Shown: positions 4,241-19,737 of the stretch, piece by piece
Position numbering within the stretch: the stretch's first letter is position 1
Layout of the letters: the number at the start of each line of letters is the position of its first letter
Virus record (IMG/VR): IMGVR_UViG_3300037225_000449
Location: 1-23,391 of that record
Direction: 5' to 3' (one strand)
Origin: a virus
DNA: 23,391 bases
Notes under the pieces: model-generated
Seen by the model: the letters and a program-made list of their open reading frames with translations, nothing else
Told to the model about the DNA's origin: nothing
Database searches by the model: none
Made by a program: the position numbers and the translations under genes

Positions 4241-5104
4241 TCAAGCGTGCTGCTTGGGGTGCTCGGCGAGGTACTGATTGTAGAGCTCGCGACCTTCTGC
4301 GGTCTTCATCACCTGGACCATGCGCTGCGCGTCGGTCAGCGGCCGGCCGTCTTCCGACTTCATGGTGATGCTCTTGGCCAGGGCCTGCATCTTCGCCTCG
4401 GCATCGCCATGACCGCCGGCCCAGCCGGCCACGCCGGTCGCCTGCATCATCGTCTGGTTCTTCTGCACGAACTCGCTCATGCGTTTCAGGTTGGACAGCA
4501 TGGCCTCTTCGGCCTTGGCCCCCGCGTCGTGCGCAGACTTCAGCAGCATCGCGTTTTCCTCGGTGCTGCCCGGGGCGTACGGGAATTCTTTCTCGGCCTT
4601 GGTGATGTACTCGAGCTTCTGGTTGCGATCGGTGAGCTCGCGGTTGCTCTTCTCGACCGTCTCCAACTTCTCGTTCATCGACTTGAACATTGCCTCGACT
4701 TTGGCGTCCATCTCGGGCTCCGTGTCCGCCGACTTGGCGGTCTTTTTCTTCGGCTCGAAGCCGCACTTCTTGGCGCGCTTCATGTAAGCGTCATCACTCT
4801 CGTCGGCGCCCTGGCTCTCGTCGCCGTCAGTCTCCTTGTGGGCCTTCTCGACCTTGGGCAGCACGTCGGCGCAGTTTTTCTTAATCCGGTAGATGGCGAC
4901 TTCGGCGGCGATGCGGTCATCGCTGGCGCCTTCACTCTTCAGCGTCTCAACGAATTCGGTTTCGCCCTCGGCGACCACGGTGACAACTTGTTTGGTATCG
5001 ACTGACATTTTCTTCTCCGATTTGGTGATGGCGTACCGTTTCCTATTGGCCGCCTTTTTGACGTTGGAAATTTCCAGCGTCGACAAGTGGGTGAGCATGT
5101 TCAT
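4241..5104 (-). CDS. Prohead scaffolding protein
   Basis: A 287-residue, highly charged protein rich in Lys, Glu and Ala. It starts with a protease-associated N-terminal tail, LSTLEISNVKKAANRKRYAI, then an acidic stretch (ETDGDESQGADESDDAY), a long heptad-rich helix around residues 130-180 (MDAKVEAMFKSMNEKLETVE, KSNRELTDRNQKLEYIT) predicted to be coiled coil, and a basic/Gln-rich end (LYNQYLAEHPKQHA). That composition and the position between the prohead protease and the decoration/capsid genes are typical of internal scaffolds, which guide capsid assembly and are degraded by the protease. The ATG overlaps the protease stop (ATGA, 5101-5104). Confidence 0.7.
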   Translation of the reverse strand: MNMLTHLSTLEISNVKKAANRKRYAITKSEKKMSVDTKQVVTVVAEGETEFVETLKSEGASDDRIAAEVAIYRIKKNCADVLPKVEKAHKETDGDESQGADESDDAYMKRAKKCGFEPKKKTAKSADTEPEMDAKVEAMFKSMNEKLETVEKSNRELTDRNQKLEYITKAEKEFPYAPGSTEENAMLLKSAHDAGAKAEEAMLSNLKRMSEFVQKNQTMMQATGVAGWAGGHGDAEAKMQALAKSITMKSEDGRPLTDAQRMVQVMKTAEGRELYNQYLAEHPKQHA

Positions 5105-7524
5105 GTTTTCGGCACCAGAGGCACAAAGGTAACTTCCGGCATCGACGCCTTATCCGCCCTGGTCTTGGCCGAGAATCCACCGATCGATACGCCGGTGATG
5201 TCTCCGCGCTTATACGCGGCCCAGCCATCGGCGTCGAGCTTGATCCCGACTATCCACGCACCAGAATGCACAACATCGTCTCCATAAGGCATTTCCCATG
5301 CCGAATGCGGCTGCAGGGTCATCGCCTTCTGGTAGTCCTCTTTGCTCGGGTAGGGTACACACGAGCTTTCTACCAAGTCAGCGCGGTCCTTGCGCGTATG
5401 CTCTCGGCCGATGACGCGCGACTGCCTCAAATAGTCGTGCGCCGCCTGTTCTGCGACGGCGGGCGGGATCCATTCGTCTTGCGTGTCGACCTCGTATGGG
5501 TCGATGGCCACGCAGTAGACGATCTGTTTCTCGGCCGCTGCCTTCGCTACCTTGACGAAACACTCACCACTTCGACCGGGGAGGATCTCCAACCTTGGAC
5601 CAGGGGAGATGACACTAGTGTCCTTGAAAATAAATCCCTCGTCAAGAGCCTTGGTGATACGACCTAATTTGCGCTCCATTTCTCCTTGCGTGGACCTGCA
5701 AGTCTTCTTTGTGTACCGATCCTCGTTAAGCCTGGCCGCCAATGGATGTGGCATCATCAAGAGCGCCCGGTCCCCAAGAGCCTCATGCGCGGTCTTGCCG
5801 ATCGCCACCACCACGGCCTGCGGCCAACGGTCTAGCTCGGTTTTTCGGTATTCGGCGTACTTGTCCATCTCGGCCCTGGTGAAGTCCTGCCACTGTTGCG
5901 GGATGTAGTTCCCAACGCCGAATTGGTGCATCTCGCATCTTGGGACGACCGGGCAAGCGAACCCGACGGCGACCTCGGATTTTGTGACGCCCAGAGGCGC
6001 CAGGTAACGCTCGGCAAACGCAACACCATCGGCGCCGACAAACGCCTCGCCACGCGCAAGCTCGAGCTCGTTAGGGGCCGCGCTGACGAATACCAGTCGC
6101 GCAGACGCGGGCCCGACGAACGGGACGAATGTTGAGTGGAGCAGTGCATCGTGCGCCGCCTCTGCGGTCTTCTGGATGTGCTCTGGCGGTGCCGCGACCG
6201 AGCTGTGGCTCGGGCCCGAAACCGTCATGTCACCGGAAATATCGGCCGTGATTTCAACAATGTCGCCTACATGCAGGCCGGGCACGGAATGGCACACCAG
6301 CTCGCCGCACACCACGCTGCCATCTTGGACTTGGGTCACCTCCGCCGGTGCCTTCGAGGGGGAGGCGAAGTCGACCGGCGAAGGTTGCCCAAGGGGAAAC
6401 GCGGTGTCGGCGTCATTGACCGACAACACCATCGTGTCGAAATAGATGTCTTGCAGCGGCGCACGCTTCGGCATCTTGGCCGACTCGTCGACGTACGCCA
6501 GTGTCAGGTGTGGCGTGAAATCGTGGGCCTGGTTGACCGGGACGCCACGGGCCACAAGGGCGCGCACCAGCCGGGCCCGCAAGTCGGTGAGTCCCGGCAC
6601 GTCGACCAGCCGGATCAATACGTCCTTGCCATCGGACGAATCGGTGCCGGCGAAGCGACCAATGCCGGCCAAGACCCCACGCAGCACTGGCGTGTCTTGT
6701 ATGGTGCCGATCGCCTCGACGGCGCTCATCATGCCGGTCGGCCCCACGGTTGACATACGGCCCAAGTACGCCAGCGTCACGTGTAGCGACTCAGCCGGCT
6801 CGCCGCCTTCGAGTGCGATGTCCTTGGCGGTCTGCGCTGGCAAACGCAGGGCAATCATGACCCCGGGATCCCCGGAGCGGTCGGCTTTCTTGGCACGCGA
6901 GTAGTAGTGGGCGTCTTCTTTGAGATGGTCGAGCGCGATCTCCTCGGCGATGGCGCGATCGTTGGTGTGCTCCATCTCTTCTTTGGTGCCCAGCCGGAGC
7001 TCGTCGGGGTCCGCCTTATCGCGGGGAAGGCCCGGCTTGCCGCCGAGCTTCTCACCCTTGGCCGCCGCCTCGCGTCGGCACTTCTCGGCCCAGAACTGTT
7101 CGGCCAGCACCTCACCGCCCGTGCGTGTGCCGCGCCGCACGTCCGCCGCCGCCCAGACCTCCGCGCGCTCGAAGGCGTCGTCGAGCTCCCATTGTGAGAG
7201 CGACGCCGTGCCGGCCATGAACGACTTCTCTATCGACGTGGCCCGGGCCCGCCCGCTCGCCATGCCGCCCGCGTGACCGCGCGCGTGAGCGTGGACCTCC
7301 GCGAACTTGTCGCCCAGCGCGGCCTTGGCCTTGGCCAGCGCCGCCTCGAGATACTCGCGGGATTTCTTCTTGGTCTCCGGCGTCGGCTTGCCCTCGGTGC
7401 GGCATGCTTCGCGAAGCTGGCGGTGTGCGGCCGCAACCGCACTGTCTGGATCGTGGCCGGCCTTGATCATCTCCGCGATGTTCTCGCGGTACGCTTCGAT
7501 TGAGCAGCTTGCGGCGAGAGGCAC
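5101..7524 (-). CDS. Multidomain prohead protein: DUF5661, 2H-phosphoesterase-like, UDG-like and XkdF-type protease domains
   Basis: An 807-residue protein starting at GTG 7524 with an AGGGG site eight bases upstream. Domains in order: an Ala/Lys-rich helical N-terminus (1-165); a DUF5661-like segment (about 177-213, ELRLGTKEEMEHTNDRAIAE then IALDHLKEDAHYYS); a 2H phosphoesterase / 2'-5' RNA ligase-like domain (about 218-375) with the two diagnostic HxT motifs, HVT at 248-250 and HLT at 339-341; a short beta-rich linker (about 400-440); a uracil-DNA-glycosylase-like domain (about 465-625) with SAAPNELELARGEAFVG and VVVAIGKTAHEALGD then MPHPLA; and a C-terminal XkdF-type phage serine protease domain (about 665-790: DEWIPPAV, GREHT, ESSCVPYPS, GAWIVGIKLD, GDITGVSIGGFS). 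It precedes the scaffold gene, as expected for the maturation protease. Whether the 2H and UDG modules are active is unknown; the usual UDG Fe-S cysteines are not obvious. Confidence 0.75.
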   Translation of the reverse strand: MPLAASCSIEAYRENIAEMIKAGHDPDSAVAAAHRQLREACRTEGKPTPETKKKSREYLEAALAKAKAALGDKFAEVHAHARGHAGGMASGRARATSIEKSFMAGTASLSQWELDDAFERAEVWAAADVRRGTRTGGEVLAEQFWAEKCRREAAAKGEKLGGKPGLPRDKADPDELRLGTKEEMEHTNDRAIAEEIALDHLKEDAHYYSRAKKADRSGDPGVMIALRLPAQTAKDIALEGGEPAESLHVTLAYLGRMSTVGPTGMMSAVEAIGTIQDTPVLRGVLAGIGRFAGTDSSDGKDVLIRLVDVPGLTDLRARLVRALVARGVPVNQAHDFTPHLTLAYVDESAKMPKRAPLQDIYFDTMVLSVNDADTAFPLGQPSPVDFASPSKAPAEVTQVQDGSVVCGELVCHSVPGLHVGDIVEITADISGDMTVSGPSHSSVAAPPEHIQKTAEAAHDALLHSTFVPFVGPASARLVFVSAAPNELELARGEAFVGADGVAFAERYLAPLGVTKSEVAVGFACPVVPRCEMHQFGVGNYIPQQWQDFTRAEMDKYAEYRKTELDRWPQAVVVAIGKTAHEALGDRALLMMPHPLAARLNEDRYTKKTCRSTQGEMERKLGRITKALDEGFIFKDTSVISPGPRLEILPGRSGECFVKVAKAAAEKQIVYCVAIDPYEVDTQDEWIPPAVAEQAAHDYLRQSRVIGREHTRKDRADLVESSCVPYPSKEDYQKAMTLQPHSAWEMPYGDDVVHSGAWIVGIKLDADGWAAYKRGDITGVSIGGFSAKTRADKASMPEVTFVPLVPKT

Positions 7525-11266: not shown

Positions 11267-12013
11267 CTATGGATGCGGGAAAGCGACAAGGATTTGGCGA
11301 ATCTGGTCGGGGGTGCGGTAGTCGGCGCACGAGCAATTGCTTTTTCTGGAATTATGAGAATGACACAGGGGTTGAAGATTCGTCGAGCGGTTGCTCCCTC
11401 CCAACGACAATGGAACGACATGATCGATCGTGACTCCTCCGCAGCATTCCGCACTGTTTGGATGAAGGCATGTACGACCAAGAATACTCAAGACGATTTT
11501 CAAATCTTTCACACTACAATCCCCCGGGGCGTTTCTCTTGCGGGATAGCCGGCGATGATTGTTTACCCTGACCTGATCTGGATTTGCTATTTGATACGCG
11601 GCCGCACGCGCCTTCACCTTTTCTTGATTGCGCAACCTGTAGGCAAGGCAATAGGCTTTCATTTCTTTTGGATGTGCAATGGCGTATGATTTGCACGCTG
11701 CCGCCACGGCCTTTTTATTTCTCTGCCGCCATGATCTCCCGCGTTGTAAAAATTCTCTCCTTCTGGTGGGATATGCCCATGAATACCAAGCAAACCAAAT
11801 ACACTTCTTTGAGCAATAGATTTTGTCCTTCCTTTTTGCGGAAAAATCTTCTCCGCACCAACAGCACTCTTTTTTCTCTACTGGTTTAGGCGGCCTACGT
11901 GCGGCATCATAGCATCGAGACGAGCAGAAAATTTTATCTTTTCTGCTCGCCGAAAACTCCTTCCCGCACTTCGGATTCGCGCACTCTCTCATGACAACCA
12001 TGACGCGCTCCAT
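11267..12013 (-). CDS. HNH homing endonuclease with two zinc ribbons (intact, free-standing)
   Basis: A 248-residue basic protein. Two N-terminal zinc-ribbon motifs, C11..C16...C30..C34 and C50/C51..C53...C67..C71 (CGKEFSASRKDKIFCSSRC; CGEDFSAKRKDKIYCSKKC), are followed by a Lys/Arg/Ala helical spacer with 'NPDQVRVNNHRRLSRKRNAP' and then the HNH domain (about 180-232) with TIDHVVPLSLGGSNRSTNLQ and CHSHN: DH at 197-198, Asn 212, His 218/220. A conserved tail ADYRTPDQIRQILVAF ends the protein. The start could be 12013 (shares one base with the upstream stop) or the ATG at 12001, which has GGAG six bases upstream. The gene is visibly more AT-rich than its neighbours, as expected for an invading element. 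Confidence 0.85.
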   Translation of the reverse strand: MERVMVVMRECANPKCGKEFSASRKDKIFCSSRCYDAARRPPKPVEKKECCWCGEDFSAKRKDKIYCSKKCIWFAWYSWAYPTRRREFLQRGRSWRQRNKKAVAAACKSYAIAHPKEMKAYCLAYRLRNQEKVKARAAAYQIANPDQVRVNNHRRLSRKRNAPGDCSVKDLKIVLSILGRTCLHPNSAECCGGVTIDHVVPLSLGGSNRSTNLQPLCHSHNSRKSNCSCADYRTPDQIRQILVAFPHP

Positions 12014-12597: not shown

Positions 12598-12628
12598 CAG
12601 TCTGTTGTTGTAGTTCCCGAGTGTAGCA
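12563..12628. repeat. TGCTACAC / GTGTAGCA inverted repeat pair
   Basis: TGCTACAC at 12563-12570 and GTGTAGCA at 12621-12628 are perfect complements about 58 bp apart, spanning the transcription start of the promoter at 12636-12663. A longer version of the same half-site pair (TGCTACAGCGA / TCGCTGTAGCA) occurs at 22636-22696 in the other large regulatory gap, suggesting one DNA-binding protein for both. Confidence 0.45.
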
Positions 12629-12635
12629 TGCTTGG

Positions 12636-12663
12636 AGTTTAGCACATCCGGTGCAAATGTCAA
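12636..12663 (-). promoter_or_regulatory. Sigma70-like promoter with operator dyad (copy 1)
   Basis: Minus strand: TTGACA (12663-12658), 16-bp spacer, TAAACT (12641-12636). The TGA within TTGACA is the stop codon of the large terminase gene. Between and overlapping the core elements is the dyad TTGCAC-N5-GTGCTA, shared with the promoters at 16050 and 17780. It should drive the exported-protein gene at 12522. An ATG six bases after the -10 opens a 10-codon frame. Confidence 0.7.
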
Positions 12664-15194
12664 CCGAATTGGCGCCACCCGCCGCCGCCAAGCCCGGCCT
12701 GCATCGGGATCACGACCTCAAGCATGCGCGACTTCTGGATGTCGACCAGGGCCTGGCTTGTCGCATCCACCTGGTCGTCGTATTTGCTCTTCGGGAACGT
12801 CACAAGCTCTTCGATGTACTCGCCGACCCATGGCGCATTCTCGCGCTTTGGCAACCAGATGTTGCCGGCCTCGAAGAGCGGCGACACCGCCATTAGCCGA
12901 CGCGGTTTGTCACCGAGCGGCGTAACCGGGACGAGCCCCTGCACCTTGTTTTTGAGCACCGAGAGCAGTGCCGCCCCGTTCGCTTTTTTCTCCACCTTCT
13001 TGCGCAGCGCCATCGGATACGCCTTGGTCACATTCTCGACCTGAGCCACGCTCGCCGAAAAGTCCACGCGGTCTCGGTATTGATGCACAAGGTAGCAGTT
13101 CGCCCCCGTCTGCGCCCACACTTGCCCCACCACGTAGGAACCCGCCTCGGTTTCATCGAATGTCAGATCCCAGCTTTGCCACCATCGATCGATAGTGTCT
13201 GGCAGTGTGTCGTAATAGCGCAACCAGTCGCGCTTTATGATTGACCCTTCAGGCGCGCTCGGACGTTGCTGATAAAGCGAGGTCCACGCGGCGCCCGGAA
13301 TTGTCGCCTTGACCGCCCGTAGGTGCTCGACGGTGAATCTATTGGCCCACAACGCCTCACCCTCGGCGCGCGGGTCATCTGCTGTCGGGAGTCCTTCCTT
13401 GATGGCCGGCAAGCAAAGCACTTCCCATTGCTCGGCTTCGCGATCCTTCTCTGCGTATTCGAGTAGGCGCCCCGCCAGGTCGTCCTCGTGCCATCTGGTC
13501 AGGGTAAGCAGTATGCCGTTCGGGTTGCCGATGACGCGGGGGCGCAACGTCGTCGCGTACCATCCAAATAACTTGTCTCGGTAGGTCGGGCTATTCGCCT
13601 CGTCGGCGTTTTTGATTGGGTCGTCGATTATGCAATTGTGGGCGATAAATCCCTCGACAACGAAACTGCGATCTTCTTCCACCTGGAGGTCATAAACGCG
13701 CGCTTCTCCGCATTTTTCGATTTGTGCCACGCCATATGGCATCGGCGACAAAGCACCACCAGGTTGTTGGGTGAATCGTTCCGTTTCACTTCGTCGATAT
13801 GGTGCACGTGAAGATGAGACCTCGATCCACACTCCACGCACGTTTTGGATAGGGCGCGCATCTTTTTGGATATCTTCTTGCGAAAGGCTCTGGAATGCGC
13901 CGCGATCCACCACCCGTCGCGATAATTCGGATTCAAATCCTCCCGCATCGCCCGGCCGTGCCCCTCGTTTTTGCACGCCATCGAACAATAGACGCTCTCC
14001 GTCGATTTTGGGCGAAACATTTGTCCGCAATTCGGACAAGCACGATCCGGCAAACGGCGGCGAACCCCGTGCGCCGCGTCGTATGCGCCTCGACATTTCG
14101 TTGAGCAGAAACGTCTTTTGTTTTTGGCGACCATTCTGCCACACCGTTCGCACTTCGGCCGCTTCGCCAAAGCCTCCGAATGTTGAGCCTCTTGCTGACA
14201 TGCCCTCGAACAATAGCGCGGAAGATCCAGTGGTGTGTGCCGGTGCTGCTTGGGGACGAACGAAACCCCACAATTTCTGCACGTCCGCACAATCTGTTGG
14301 GCCAATCCGTCTTGGCGTTGCGCTCGCGTATAACAAGCCCGAGAACAAAACTTTGGAAATTCCGGTTCGCCCTTCCGAACCTTTTTTGGAACGAACGCTA
14401 TCCCACAACTCTTGCACGTCCGCGGCAAATACAATTCGTGAATCTTTTGCATCGCACCAGCCCCTTGGTGTCAACAAACGGTGGTCATTCGTGCAGACCA
14501 AACTACCACCGTTTACCGAAAGGCGCAATACTGGCCGAACCCCGTTATCCGCTGTCGCGATTACCGCACGCCAACGACCACGATGCGTCAACACAAGATC
14601 CCCGGCGTGTACCTGCTCGATTGGACACCAACCGTTCTTAGTCAATACTCGCTGCCCTCTTGCAATACAATAACTTCCTCCCGCCACAGGACTACCCCCC
14701 ATGCCCGTTATGCCTCCACCCACACCCGCACTGCGATAGGTGCCGCCGTGCTTAACTATCTCGAATAGGTCAGCGTTGCGCTGCCATGCGCCAGTTGTCC
14801 GTGCGTTTGACGACCCGAGCTTAGTCTCAGGGAACAGCCGCGCGTAGGCCGGCGAGTCGATGATGCGCTGAACGTCGCGGTTCATCATGGACGCCAGATC
14901 GGCCGAGTAGCTACAGCTGATGATGTTGGCGCACGGGTTACGTCCAAAAATGAACGCCGGAAGGTGGCGCGAGACAAGCTGACTTTTGCCATGCCGAGGC
15001 GGGGTCTCGATTAACAGGCGCGGGATCTCGCCACGCACAAACCGCTCGAGCTTTTCGCAGAATAGCCGGTGATGCCAGTTGGCCTCGAATGTTGGCATCG
15101 TGTAGAGCACGAACGCCAAGAGGTTCTCTCGCGCACGGGCGATCGCCTCTTGTTCGAGCAGGTCCTCGAGTTCACTTGCCGCCGTTGACAACAC
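12660..15194 (-). CDS. Terminase large subunit, interrupted by an intein
   Basis: The 844-codon precursor yields a 499-residue terminase after removal of the intein, a normal length. ATPase: Walker A PPRHGKS (65-71); Walker B IIDDP directly after the intein; LTLTRWHEDDL coupling motif. Nuclease: WQSWDLTFDETEAGSY and the final FPKSKYDDQVDATSQAL acidic cluster. It packages DNA by ATP-driven translocation through the portal and cuts the concatemer. The frame is open further upstream, but that extension lies inside the small terminase gene and does not look like terminase; I choose GTG 15194 because homology-like sequence starts there (LSTAASELEDLLEQEAIARA) and it gives a 23-bp overlap with the small subunit. 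No strong Shine-Dalgarno is visible at this GTG, so the exact start is uncertain. The stop codon lies within the -35 box of the next promoter. Confidence 0.9.
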   Translation of the reverse strand: MLSTAASELEDLLEQEAIARARENLLAFVLYTMPTFEANWHHRLFCEKLERFVRGEIPRLLIETPPRHGKSQLVSRHLPAFIFGRNPCANIISCSYSADLASMMNRDVQRIIDSPAYARLFPETKLGSSNARTTGAWQRNADLFEIVKHGGTYRSAGVGGGITGMGGSPVAGGSYCIARGQRVLTKNGWCPIEQVHAGDLVLTHRGRWRAVIATADNGVRPVLRLSVNGGSLVCTNDHRLLTPRGWCDAKDSRIVFAADVQELWDSVRSKKGSEGRTGISKVLFSGLLYASATPRRIGPTDCADVQKLWGFVRPQAAPAHTTGSSALLFEGMSARGSTFGGFGEAAEVRTVWQNGRQKQKTFLLNEMSRRIRRGARGSPPFAGSCLSELRTNVSPKIDGERLLFDGVQKRGARPGDAGGFESELSRRVVDRGAFQSLSQEDIQKDARPIQNVRGVWIEVSSSRAPYRRSETERFTQQPGGALSPMPYGVAQIEKCGEARVYDLQVEEDRSFVVEGFIAHNCIIDDPIKNADEANSPTYRDKLFGWYATTLRPRVIGNPNGILLTLTRWHEDDLAGRLLEYAEKDREAEQWEVLCLPAIKEGLPTADDPRAEGEALWANRFTVEHLRAVKATIPGAAWTSLYQQRPSAPEGSIIKRDWLRYYDTLPDTIDRWWQSWDLTFDETEAGSYVVGQVWAQTGANCYLVHQYRDRVDFSASVAQVENVTKAYPMALRKKVEKKANGAALLSVLKNKVQGLVPVTPLGDKPRRLMAVSPLFEAGNIWLPKRENAPWVGEYIEELVTFPKSKYDDQVDATSQALVDIQKSRMLEVVIPMQAGLGGGGWRQFG
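13628..14452 (-). CDS. HNH homing endonuclease with four zinc ribbons, encoded in the +1 frame inside the intein
   Basis: A 274-residue basic protein. Zinc ribbons: C13..C16/C36..C40, C58..C61/C81..C85, C101..C104/C116..C120, C139..C142/C156..C160 (pattern CxxCG...[FY]CSxxC). After a short helical spacer (NPNYRDGWWIAAHSRAFRKK) comes an HNH domain at about 204-245: CVECGSRSHLHVHHIDEVKR, PNNLVVLCRRCHMAWH, with His217/218, Asn230, His239 and zinc Cys 205/208/235/238. The ATG at 14452 has AAGGGG eight bases upstream, so independent translation is plausible. It begins just after intein block B, covers blocks F and G in another frame, and its TAA ends four bases past the splice junction. It probably promotes homing of the intein into empty terminase genes. 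Confidence 0.85.
   Translation of the reverse strand: MQKIHELYLPRTCKSCGIAFVPKKVRKGEPEFPKFCSRACYTRAQRQDGLAQQIVRTCRNCGVSFVPKQHRHTPLDLPRYCSRACQQEAQHSEALAKRPKCERCGRMVAKNKRRFCSTKCRGAYDAAHGVRRRLPDRACPNCGQMFRPKSTESVYCSMACKNEGHGRAMREDLNPNYRDGWWIAAHSRAFRKKISKKMRALSKTCVECGSRSHLHVHHIDEVKRNDSPNNLVVLCRRCHMAWHKSKNAEKRAFMTSRWKKIAVSLSRDLSPTIA
13635..14669 (-). other. Intein within the large terminase (345 residues, Cys1, C-terminal His-Asn, Cys+1)
   Basis: Residues 176-520 of the terminase precursor. Block A: CIARGQRVLTKNGWCPIEQV with catalytic Cys1, then HAGDLVLT. Block B: TNDH (235-238) in SLVCTNDHRLLTPRGW. Block F: VYDLQVEEDRSFVVEGFIAH; block G: His519-Asn520 followed by Cys521 (+1). All residues needed for standard splicing are present, giving the spliced junction GGSY-CIIDDPIKN. 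The site is immediately before the Walker B motif, a conserved position where loss of the intein is costly. Between blocks B and F about 250 residues of the terminase frame show no recognisable domain; they coincide with a nuclease gene read in the +1 frame. Confidence 0.9.
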
Positions 15195-15696
15195 GCAGTA
15201 ACTGCTTGATCCGCGCCTGGCGCTCTTCGGGTGATTTCTCGACGATGCGGGTCTCCTGGGTCTGTATGGTCTCGACGACGCGCTCGGGCACGCCCAGCGC
15301 ATCGCGCCAGAGCTTGGCCATGTCGACAATCCACTGGCGCTTTTCTGTCGGCGTAAAGGCCTCTATCCGGTCATCCGGCATCACGTCACATGCCTTGACG
15401 ATGCGCTCATACATGCGCTGTGCGGTCTCGGCCTGCTTGGCGGCCATCAGTCGCACGGCCGCCACGGTCTCGCCCTGCTTCTCTTTGTCGAGATGTCGAT
15501 CCCAGCTGTCTGCGCGCTCCGGCCATCGCCACTTCACAGAATACTTGCGAACCGTGTTCCCGTGCAGGTCGAACTTGGCCGACACCGCAACGAGTGTGCG
15601 TTCGTAGCCCATGTCGCGGAACGCCGTGAACATGGCGAACATTCGTGCGGGCTCGTGAAACTGCTTGTCCCACGGATTGACAACGGCGTTGGCCAT
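15172..15696 (-). CDS. Terminase small subunit
   Basis: A 174-residue protein. An N-terminal helix-turn-helix (about 25-65) with RTLVAVSAKFDLHGNTVRKY and the characteristic 'WRWPERADSWDRHL' that follows such motifs in small terminases is succeeded by a long helical region (KEKQGETVAAVRLMAAKQAE, 70-105) for oligomerisation and a basic C-terminal tail (ARIKQLLRVVNGGK) that likely contacts the large subunit. It recognises phage DNA for packaging. It overlaps the large subunit gene by 23 bp. The ATG at 15696 has no strong Shine-Dalgarno. Confidence 0.8.
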   Translation of the reverse strand: MANAVVNPWDKQFHEPARMFAMFTAFRDMGYERTLVAVSAKFDLHGNTVRKYSVKWRWPERADSWDRHLDKEKQGETVAAVRLMAAKQAETAQRMYERIVKACDVMPDDRIEAFTPTEKRQWIVDMAKLWRDALGVPERVVETIQTQETRIVEKSPEERQARIKQLLRVVNGGK

Positions 15697-15782
15697 AGGG
15701 GCATCTTAGCGCGAAAGCGGGAGAATTGCAGCACGTAAAGAGGAATCAAGCCCGACAACAACCCACGGATTGCTGACTTTTA

Positions 15783-18037: not shown

Positions 18038-18405
18038 GCGCTCCTCGCCTTCAGCTCCGCCTCGGCCGCAGCGCGGAATGGTGCGAGCTCGGGGACGCCC
18101 TCACTCTCGGCGATGAGCGTGACCAACTCACCGGCCGACCAATCCGCAAACCCGTACCCGCCGCCGACGAGCCGCGCCTTCTGCTCAAATTGCAGGAGCG
18201 CCGCTTTAGAGTCCTCGTCATCGATTGTCCATCCGCCCGCCTTCTCGATGAGCGCGCGGATCCGCACGTAGTCGGCCGCGTGGATCGTGACGTTAAAGCG
18301 CTCGACGATCTGTGTGCCCGCGCGAAACACTGGCGTGGGTGTCGTATAGAGCATCTGGCGCCGCAATGCGTTTGTCAGCTCGGTGGTTTCGTCGATGGTT
18401 AGCAT
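18034..18405 (-). CDS. Hypothetical phage protein
   Basis: A 123-residue protein (MLTIDETTELTNALRRQMLY ...) with a helical N-terminus, a mixed centre containing 'VRIRALIEKAGGWTIDDEDS' and an acidic-helical end (ELAPFRAAAEAELKARSA). No motif, signal peptide or membrane segment. A TAGGAGCG site lies upstream of the ATG at 18405, inside the end of the glycosyltransferase gene (7-bp overlap), and it overlaps the next gene by four bases, so it is part of a coupled set. Confidence 0.65.
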   Translation of the reverse strand: MLTIDETTELTNALRRQMLYTTPTPVFRAGTQIVERFNVTIHAADYVRIRALIEKAGGWTIDDEDSKAALLQFEQKARLVGGGYGFADWSAGELVTLIAESEGVPELAPFRAAAEAELKARSA

Positions 18406-19076
18406 TTTTCGCTCCTATGGTGCTGGCGGCTGATCAAAAACGCCCGCGTGTCCCCTGGCATCTTGTACGCCTCGCCGCCCCAATTCATCGCCTCGCCGCG
18501 GTATAGACTGGACGCCATAAATTCACGATTCGATGGTCTAGGAGAAACAGTCGAGGCCATGTTCGGCGAATGTTCGACGAGAGACGGGTTCGTGGCACAG
18601 ACCGGCATGCCGTGGTTGGCCGCATAGTGCAGCACGCGCAAGTCGTCCTGAGACACCGTTGGTTGGATGTACTCGTCGTTCCACGCCACCATGTCTTGGG
18701 CCATCTTGGCCGGCATGCACAAAGCCACGCCCCAATTACTGATCGGGAATTCCACCCACGGGGCCCGCCCGGCTTCGCCCGCAGCTTTGTCGTTGTGGTA
18801 GAAAAACGAGATGATCGATTCCGGCCTGGCCTCGACGGCGGCTCTGGCTAATCGCGCGAACCCACCGACCGGCACCGCGTCGTCCTGTGCCAACAGCACG
18901 TGGCTGCACCCAGTGGCGGCGCCGTCGATCCAGCATCGCCGCGCGTTCCACCATGGTCCCCGGTGCGCGCAGTCGATCATGGTGCGTGGCTCAAACGGCG
19001 CGAGCGCGGAGATGAGCAACGTGGGGCAGCTTCTTTCTGGCACTGCCATTATTCTTGCCGAAATAGATATGGTCAT
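18399..19076 (-). CDS. Glycosyltransferase-like protein
   Basis: A 225-residue protein starting at ATG 19076 (MTISISARIMAVPERSCPTL). It has the layout of phage GT-A-type glycosyltransferases: 'HRGPWWNARRCWIDGAATGC' followed by 'SHVLLAQDDAVP' (the acidic QDD at 64-66 in the place of a DxD-type metal/nucleotide-sugar site), 'SNWGVALCMPAKMAQDMV', a 'QPTVSQDDLRVLHYAANHG' acceptor-side segment and 'CATNPSLVEHSPNMAS'. The start overlaps the end of the frameshifted HNH reading frame by four bases (ATGA), confirming where that gene originally ended. It might modify phage DNA, capsid or a host glycan; the acceptor cannot be read from sequence. Confidence 0.75.
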   Translation of the reverse strand: MTISISARIMAVPERSCPTLLISALAPFEPRTMIDCAHRGPWWNARRCWIDGAATGCSHVLLAQDDAVPVGGFARLARAAVEARPESIISFFYHNDKAAGEAGRAPWVEFPISNWGVALCMPAKMAQDMVAWNDEYIQPTVSQDDLRVLHYAANHGMPVCATNPSLVEHSPNMASTVSPRPSNREFMASSLYRGEAMNWGGEAYKMPGDTRAFLISRQHHRSEKC

Positions 19077-19737
19077 AGAAGCACCAATTGGAACGCGGCA
19101 AGAAGTTTTTTCATTTGTGGCTTGGTGCGATAATCGGCGCACGAATGGTGTTGTTTCGGCACAGAAGTTGTCTGTTTAGCGGTCCATCAGAGCCACCAAC
19201 AGCCAGTGGGATAACGTGGTCCCACGTCACGTCGGTTGCCGATCCGCATTTCAAACACGTATCGCCAAGAATATTTTTCAAAGTTCTCAGATCGGATCCG
19301 CTACATCTGCCGAGAGCATTTCTTTTTGCTGCTCTTCGACGTTGCGTTGCAGCTATTCCTCTGCTTGGATCTGCGGCATATTTTTCTCTACATCTCTGGT
19401 TGATTTTATCTCTATTTCTTTTTCGATATTTTTTTGTCCATTCTCTCCATATTTTTTTCCCTCTGTCCGACTTCGTGTATTTCTTTCTCGCCTGCTTACG
19501 AACGCATTTCATTGAGCAGTATTTTTGCTTAGCAATGTGTTGTTTGAATTTTTCTCCGCAAACAGGGCACACTCTTTCTTCAAGAATTCTTCTCTGCCCC
19601 CGCATGTCCGCGTCGTATATTTTTTTCTTGCCCGCCCTCACTTCGAACGCGCACTTGTCATTACAATATCTTTGCGCTCTGTTTTGCGAGAAAAATATCT
19701 TCCCACAACAACGGCAAGTTCTCGGCTTGAGTTCCAT
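19073..19737 (-). pseudogene. HNH homing endonuclease, frameshifted and lacking the last catalytic segment
   Basis: The main frame (19737-19111) encodes two zinc ribbons (C8..C11/C25..C29; C57..C60/C74..C78), a Lys/Arg-rich spacer and most of an HNH domain (CLKCG, TWDHVIPLAVGGSDGPLNRQ), then ends abnormally in RNNTIRAPIIAPSHK. The expected tail, ADYRTKPQMKKLLAAFQLVL, is present in the next frame and runs to a stop at 19073. Compared with the two other HNH genes that have 12 residues between the ribbon Cys and ADYRT, only 20 bases remain here, so about 16 bases were lost, removing the final HNH His-Asn. The region is strikingly AT-rich. The gene starts directly after the upstream stop (TAAATG). 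Confidence 0.85.

Follow-up and report, generated by a model that had tools for sequence, protein, structure and literature searches.

In inteins that carry an endonuclease, this domain sits at a single conserved position, a dorsal site of the Hint fold (PMC6801210). The dCTP deaminase intein of phage CL131, which contains an HNH, is an example of such an ordinary intein (PMC6293099). In the fractured genes, the two halves of a split intein flank a homing-endonuclease gene (Dassa et al. 2009, as cited in PMC3229294). The terminase large subunit (TerL) of mycobacteriophages can also be a host, since the TerL1-e intein lies at the Walker B site of this protein (PMC5050341). Out-of-frame zinc-finger HNHs in insertions within phage genes were described for the ShiLan domain and the Pacc40 gp60 insertion (Arsenault, Gosselin and Gogarten 2025, PMC11855218). 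The ShiLan insertion, which is located in a methylase, lacks intein and intron splicing elements, was judged to be non-splicing and carries its HNH in the third frame (PMC11855218).

The stretch of DNA analysed here (IMG/VR virus record IMGVR_UViG_3300037225_000449, 23,391 bases), referred to as the window, carries a TerL intein which resembles each of these systems in part. It has an endonuclease between Hint-N and Hint-C and the C1/TxxH/HN/+1 chemistry of ordinary inteins, but in those the nuclease forms a domain within the intein polypeptide, whereas that of the window is encoded in a separate frame as a predicted separate protein. Halves flanking an HNH of the window's family were found in four of the contigs we surveyed, which is the layout of the fractured genes as summarized in the citing paper; in contrast to that layout, the window intein is unsplit, with one ORF running over both halves and the nuclease overlapping in another frame. 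It is also inserted at TerL Walker B like TerL1-e, for which the source passages describe no out-of-frame nuclease (PMC5050341). As in ShiLan, an out-of-frame HNH lies in an insertion which is open in the host frame, but in the window the host gene is essential, the insertion is a complete intein, and its HNH occupies the second (+1) frame. The original prediction, which treated the locus as a singular third arrangement, has to be corrected in this respect: the layout forms a recurrent class, and ShiLan had already been published as an insertion which is not an intein and whose HNH is out of frame. Three further loci resemble ShiLan (L005 from phage BUCT618, L018 and L023): their methylase ORFs contain a zinc-ribbon HNH in the third (+2) frame, and intein motifs were not seen in them. 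BUCT618 is an E. coli phage, whereas ShiLan was described in mycobacteriophages.

The TerL gene carrying the intein is located on the minus strand at 12660..15194 (ORF and translation; Pfam Terminase_6N and Terminase_6C). Its open frame extends upstream beyond 15212 and ends with the stop at 12660, and GTG at 15194 is a plausible start, from which the gene has 844 codons, with 499 predicted to remain once the product is spliced. TerL proteins of phages share 40-43% identity with the window TerL. The TerS gene (15172-15696, minus strand; PHROG terminase small subunit) lies upstream.

The complete intein of 345 codons (13635..14669, minus strand) immediately precedes Walker B (..GGSY / C..HN / CIIDDPIK). 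The residues C1, T60xxH63 and H344-N345, followed by Cys+1, are all in frame with TerL, and coordinates and motifs thus agree with the original prediction of a complete intein in an open terminase frame. According to a 27-row alignment, the Hint-N half (14481..14669, minus strand) extends from block A (Cys1, 14669-14667) to block B (T60xxH63, 14492-14481). The Hint-C half (13635..13697, minus strand), containing blocks F and G (VYDLQVEEDRSFVVEGFIAHN), is dual-coded with the C-terminus of the HNH. The downstream splice junction on this strand is at 13634..13635 and, together with 14669/14670, marks the putative homing site. In the 27 aligned rows, there is no variation at C1, G13, T60, H63 and N345 and hardly any at H344; the +1 residue is Cys in all 42 aligned hosts save one with Ser. 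Pfam Intein_splicing and Hint_2 both matched the window intein frame below their curated (gathering) cut-offs; across 30 hosts, Intein_splicing was found in 29 and Terminase_6C in 23. The AlphaFold2 model of the intein showed a confident Hint module formed by residues 1-70 and about 320-345, the ends having mostly pLDDT >90. Among the Foldseek matches to this model were the gp41-1, DnaB and RecA inteins, with rmsd values of 1.3-2.8 and a best E of 2e-5. Judged by motifs and modelled fold, the insert is an intein of the Hint family, and protein splicing is predicted because the splicing motifs are complete and the Hint fold is formed. Signs of a second intein were seen in some other TerL genes, near the upstream P-loop (L234 1-2568, L236 344-3595, L057 2-697) or in the C-terminal part (L031 2004-5597).

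The +1 frame contains an ORF for a putative HNH homing endonuclease of 274 residues (13628..14452, minus strand), recognized by its four zinc ribbons, its HNH and the substitution periodicity of its relatives. It begins with ATG at 14452, overlaps blocks F and G and terminates inside the C-extein codons: its last sense base lies 4 nt and its TAA 7 nt beyond the splice junction. The length, the zinc ribbons, the ATG, the overlap with blocks F and G and the end four bases beyond the junction had been proposed from the sequence, and the ORF and Pfam data are in agreement with them. The zinc ribbons have the form CxxC...CxxxC (C13/16-36/40, 58/61-81/85, 101/104-116/120 and 139/142-156/160), and the HNH domain matches Pfam PF01844 (E 1.6e-6). 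H217, H218, N230 and H239 are invariant, and the HNH catalytic and zinc residues in general are invariant or nearly so among the relatives. A sequence-profile search of PDB with the HNH protein returned HNH proteins, in agreement with Pfam; the fold search with the HNH model gave no PDB match at E <= 0.001. Family and motifs support the view that the ORF encodes a separate nuclease, which would be translated and cut DNA, and this enzyme probably spreads the intein.

A possible ribosome-binding site, AAGGGG (14461..14466, minus strand), is located 8 nt before the ATG. This signal had also been predicted and is present, although the Shine-Dalgarno strength at HNH-frame starts of 25 loci did not significantly exceed that at other codons (a fraction of 0.16 of the nulls was as low). 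In the window, stops occur in the HNH frame just upstream and the open stretch ahead of the ATG is short (codons 67-73); the +1 frame is open only from about intein codon 67, which leaves the Hint-N half single-coding. The dual-coding signal begins at about intein codon 16 in the cyanophage groups C and D, at about 61 in group S and at about 85-90 in group E, and the start sites of the HNH therefore appear to differ between lineages. In the cyanophage L062/L016 groups, the signal was observed at intein codons 16-105, across nearly all of Hint-N. There, the HNH may begin some 20 codons after the start of the intein, and Hint-N codons would then serve two proteins.

To find related loci, IMG/VR and the species genomes were scanned with alignments and every ORF was scored by Hint-N, Hint-C and HNH profiles. 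The alignments were needed, as scans of IMG/VR with the single HNH or intein protein of the window gave almost no matches. We found 124 loci with a same-family HNH between both intein halves: 111 nested in +1, 11 split and 2 in frame. The nested loci, in which Hint-N and Hint-C are in one ORF, were all in +1 and none in +2; they fall into 75 groups at 99% and 54 groups at 80% HNH identity. The 11 split loci represent four distinct contigs and the broken locus L224. The cases with an in-frame HNH (L080/L294 and L103) are confined to another gene type; none was found among the close relatives, where such a form would have spoken against the original prediction. Some nested copies were 100% identical across separate assemblies (L035/L036/L202 and L047/L048). 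Using tblastn, the same layout was detected in the isolates Gordonia phage Clown (L002) and Synechococcus phage S-EIV1 (L003). Further carriers were found in cellular genomes (among them Streptomyces, Fictibacillus and a Methanosaeta MAG) and are probably prophages. The nested TerL intein at L107 2229-4256 is on the contig assigned to the archaeal Methanosaeta MAG. The nested layout is not a single case: it recurs as a class with deep conservation, and it appears to be common among phage terminases. This recurrence, together with the constraint on the HNH frame of the relatives described below, bears out the proposal that the intein is intact and that the nuclease is coded separately, in another frame.

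The TerL-frame reading of the HNH gene between Hint-N and Hint-C (13698..14430, minus strand; about 245 residues), hereafter the filler, is stop-free and otherwise unconstrained in relatives. It forms a low-confidence loop (pLDDT mostly <50) within the confident Hint fold of the AlphaFold2 model and, as inferred from the alignment, appears to occupy the usual endonuclease position of this fold. Synonymous shuffling of the window HNH codons gave on average 10.0 TerL-frame stops in the overlap, whereas none is observed, and 0 of 2000 shuffles was stop-free. The same procedure applied to 29 nested clusters gave 0 terminase-frame stops vs 262 expected, with 341 vs 317 expected in the third frame. 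In the HNH cores of class representatives, host-frame stops (observed vs expected) numbered 0 vs 465 in nested, 111 vs 113 in split and 840 vs 925 in free-standing HNHs; the zero of the nested class is partly a matter of definition, because openness was required, and it is the contrast with the split and free-standing HNHs which is informative. By the genetic code, a host-frame stop can arise in this phase only where an HNH codon ends in T. Since every amino acid has codons without this ending, synonymous changes suffice to fit any HNH protein into the arrangement.

The substitution figures come from relatives, the most window-like nested one found being L228 with 42% HNH identity. In the overlap of four groups of close relatives, the third position of HNH codons had 0.25-0.37 substitutions per site and positions 1 and 2 had 0.09-0.17. 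In the exteins of these groups, substitutions peaked at TerL's own third position, the frame thus being reversed with respect to the overlap. In five groups, the non-synonymous share in the HNH frame was 0.44-0.57 vs 0.71-0.80 expected, and in the host frame 0.74-0.83 vs 0.69-0.77 expected. Changes which were synonymous for HNH altered the host-frame amino acids about as often as expected. The HNH frame is under strong purifying selection in the relatives, and the codon-position and non-synonymous analyses thus both revealed the constraint in homologues which the original prediction had named as a check. The filler, whose non-synonymous changes are not depleted, is near neutral as a protein and constrained as an open frame. 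The predicted filler of about 250 residues is stop-free as proposed, but it does not need particular residues, since no amino-acid constraint was seen in relatives.

The most convincing explanation, which we hold with high confidence, is that the element is a mobile intein with splicing and mobility encoded in two frames of one DNA stretch; splicing, translation and cutting are deduced steps of this scheme. The TerL frame would be translated across the whole insert, the Hint domain would fold from the two ends of the insert with the middle looped out, and its self-excision would yield mature TerL. The +1 frame would give the separate zinc-ribbon HNH nuclease, probably from an internal start on the same mRNA. 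The targets of this nuclease would be inteinless Walker-B sites in related phages, and repair of the cuts would copy the whole intein including the HNH. The HNH frame would be kept as a protein and the overlying TerL frame only as stop-free. Alternatively, the nesting could be mimicked by two frameshifts due to indel errors, the HNH really being the in-frame endonuclease of an ordinary intein. A single indel which shifts both frames does occur in L224. However, the phase is identical in 111 loci including isolate phages and separate assemblies, the HNH frame continues through Hint-C codons and beyond the splice junction, and 250 terminase-frame codons are stop-free where about 10 stops would be expected. 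Because the layout recurs, we regard the error explanation, which the original prediction had itself raised, as refuted. Removal of the insert at the RNA level is of equally negligible probability. Phage group I introns often carry HNH ORFs, and a group I or II intron might thus look like an intein by chance, but an Rfam scan of 12600-15700 gave no match at E <= 1 and no group I/II intron RNA core, no nested copy has a stop in the terminase frame, although 465 would be expected in the HNH cores, and the splicing residues are invariant.

The two remaining explanations accept the nesting and concern the HNH product. A programmed +1 frameshift from the TerL frame might produce a TerL-HintN-HNH fusion with no internal initiation. 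The constant +1 phase, the HNH frame which in many relatives (groups C and D) stays open deep into Hint-N, with a part of this stretch dual-coded, and the lack of significant Shine-Dalgarno enrichment are all compatible with such a mechanism; it is nevertheless unlikely, as the HNH-frame stops in the window leave only the short open stretch of codons 67-73 and the HNH is its own gene in the split forms. That the HNH is a dead relic of past homing, both frames persisting only through the need for an open TerL, is still less probable. The broken copies L227 and L234 could be cited in its favour, but purifying selection on the HNH frame is strong in five groups, the catalytic and zinc residues are conserved, and the window copy is intact.

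The search for terminases with an empty site, proposed together with the original prediction, found L260 and L261, whose TerL proteins are 76% identical to that of the window and have no insert (GGNY-AIIDDPIK, with Ala in place of Cys at +1). The HNH is interrupted by a stop in L227 and mostly removed by an in-frame deletion in L234, with the intein frame intact in both. Decay of the HNH with an intact intein would fit a homing cycle in which the terminase is essential and the nuclease dispensable. Homing is suggested by the nuclease family, the conservation of the site, the empty sites and the decayed copies. The locus L224 (2250-4671) looks split but was rejected as a true split: it is a nested element in which a single indel disrupts the intein frame and the HNH frame alike.

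In the four split contigs (L051, L055, L057 and L084), a same-family HNH is a free gene preceded by a TerL-Hint-N ORF and followed by a Hint-C-TerL ORF. The HNH overlaps the C-half in all four and the end of the N-half in three of them. It is in +1 to the C-half in 4/4 and also to the N-half in L051 and L055, so that the halves of these two are still in the nested phase, with terminase-frame stops between them. In the HNH tree, a group of 42 rows includes 40 nested ones, that of the window among them. Two smaller groups mix split and nested forms: L084 is placed with L076, L089, L056 and L039, and L051/L055 with L067 and L012. Many forks between nested and split forms are weak and the tree gives no polarity. 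The mixed groups and the common HNH family support the view that nested and split inteins are neighbouring, closely related states of one element, with either direction possible. The suggestion that the nested form may be an intermediate on the way to a fractured gene is strengthened by these neighbours, with the qualification that the passage could also run the other way. A more speculative idea, to which we give somewhat less than even chances, is that a widespread, old class of two-frame inteins, passing to and from split inteins, is a main natural source of split inteins. If so, terminase-frame stops would lift the constraint and give a fractured gene, or the reverse would take place.

The proposed element is a selfish nuclease which is overprinted on an intein and not lodged inside the intein protein; the host gene would guard only the openness of one frame and the nuclease would evolve in the other. 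Translation of the nested gene, the tolerance of an intein to about 250 arbitrary residues and the origin of split inteins become accessible to experiments, the last because nested and split forms of one element adjoin in the tree. The arrangement is also a warning for annotation, as the nuclease of a carrier is missed and the annotated terminase includes filler without conserved meaning. In the records of both carriers examined, Clown and S-EIV1, only the terminase is annotated and the nuclease is absent.

Several other ORFs in the window deserve mention. A second, free-standing zinc-ribbon HNH gene (11267-12013, minus strand; 248 residues, PHROG HNH endonuclease) has TerL on one side and the portal gene on the other. 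Across the intein runs an antisense ORF of 300 codons with a GTG start (13771-14673, plus strand), which probably results from the double constraint on the composition of this DNA. Segments of an 807-residue ORF (5101-7524, minus strand) match the RNA-ligase and head-maturation-protease PHROGs; these odd matches raised the suspicion of a second intein, which was dismissed as no splicing motifs were seen in the protein. An ORF upstream of the packaging genes (18399-19142, minus strand) matches a PHROG glucosyltransferase.
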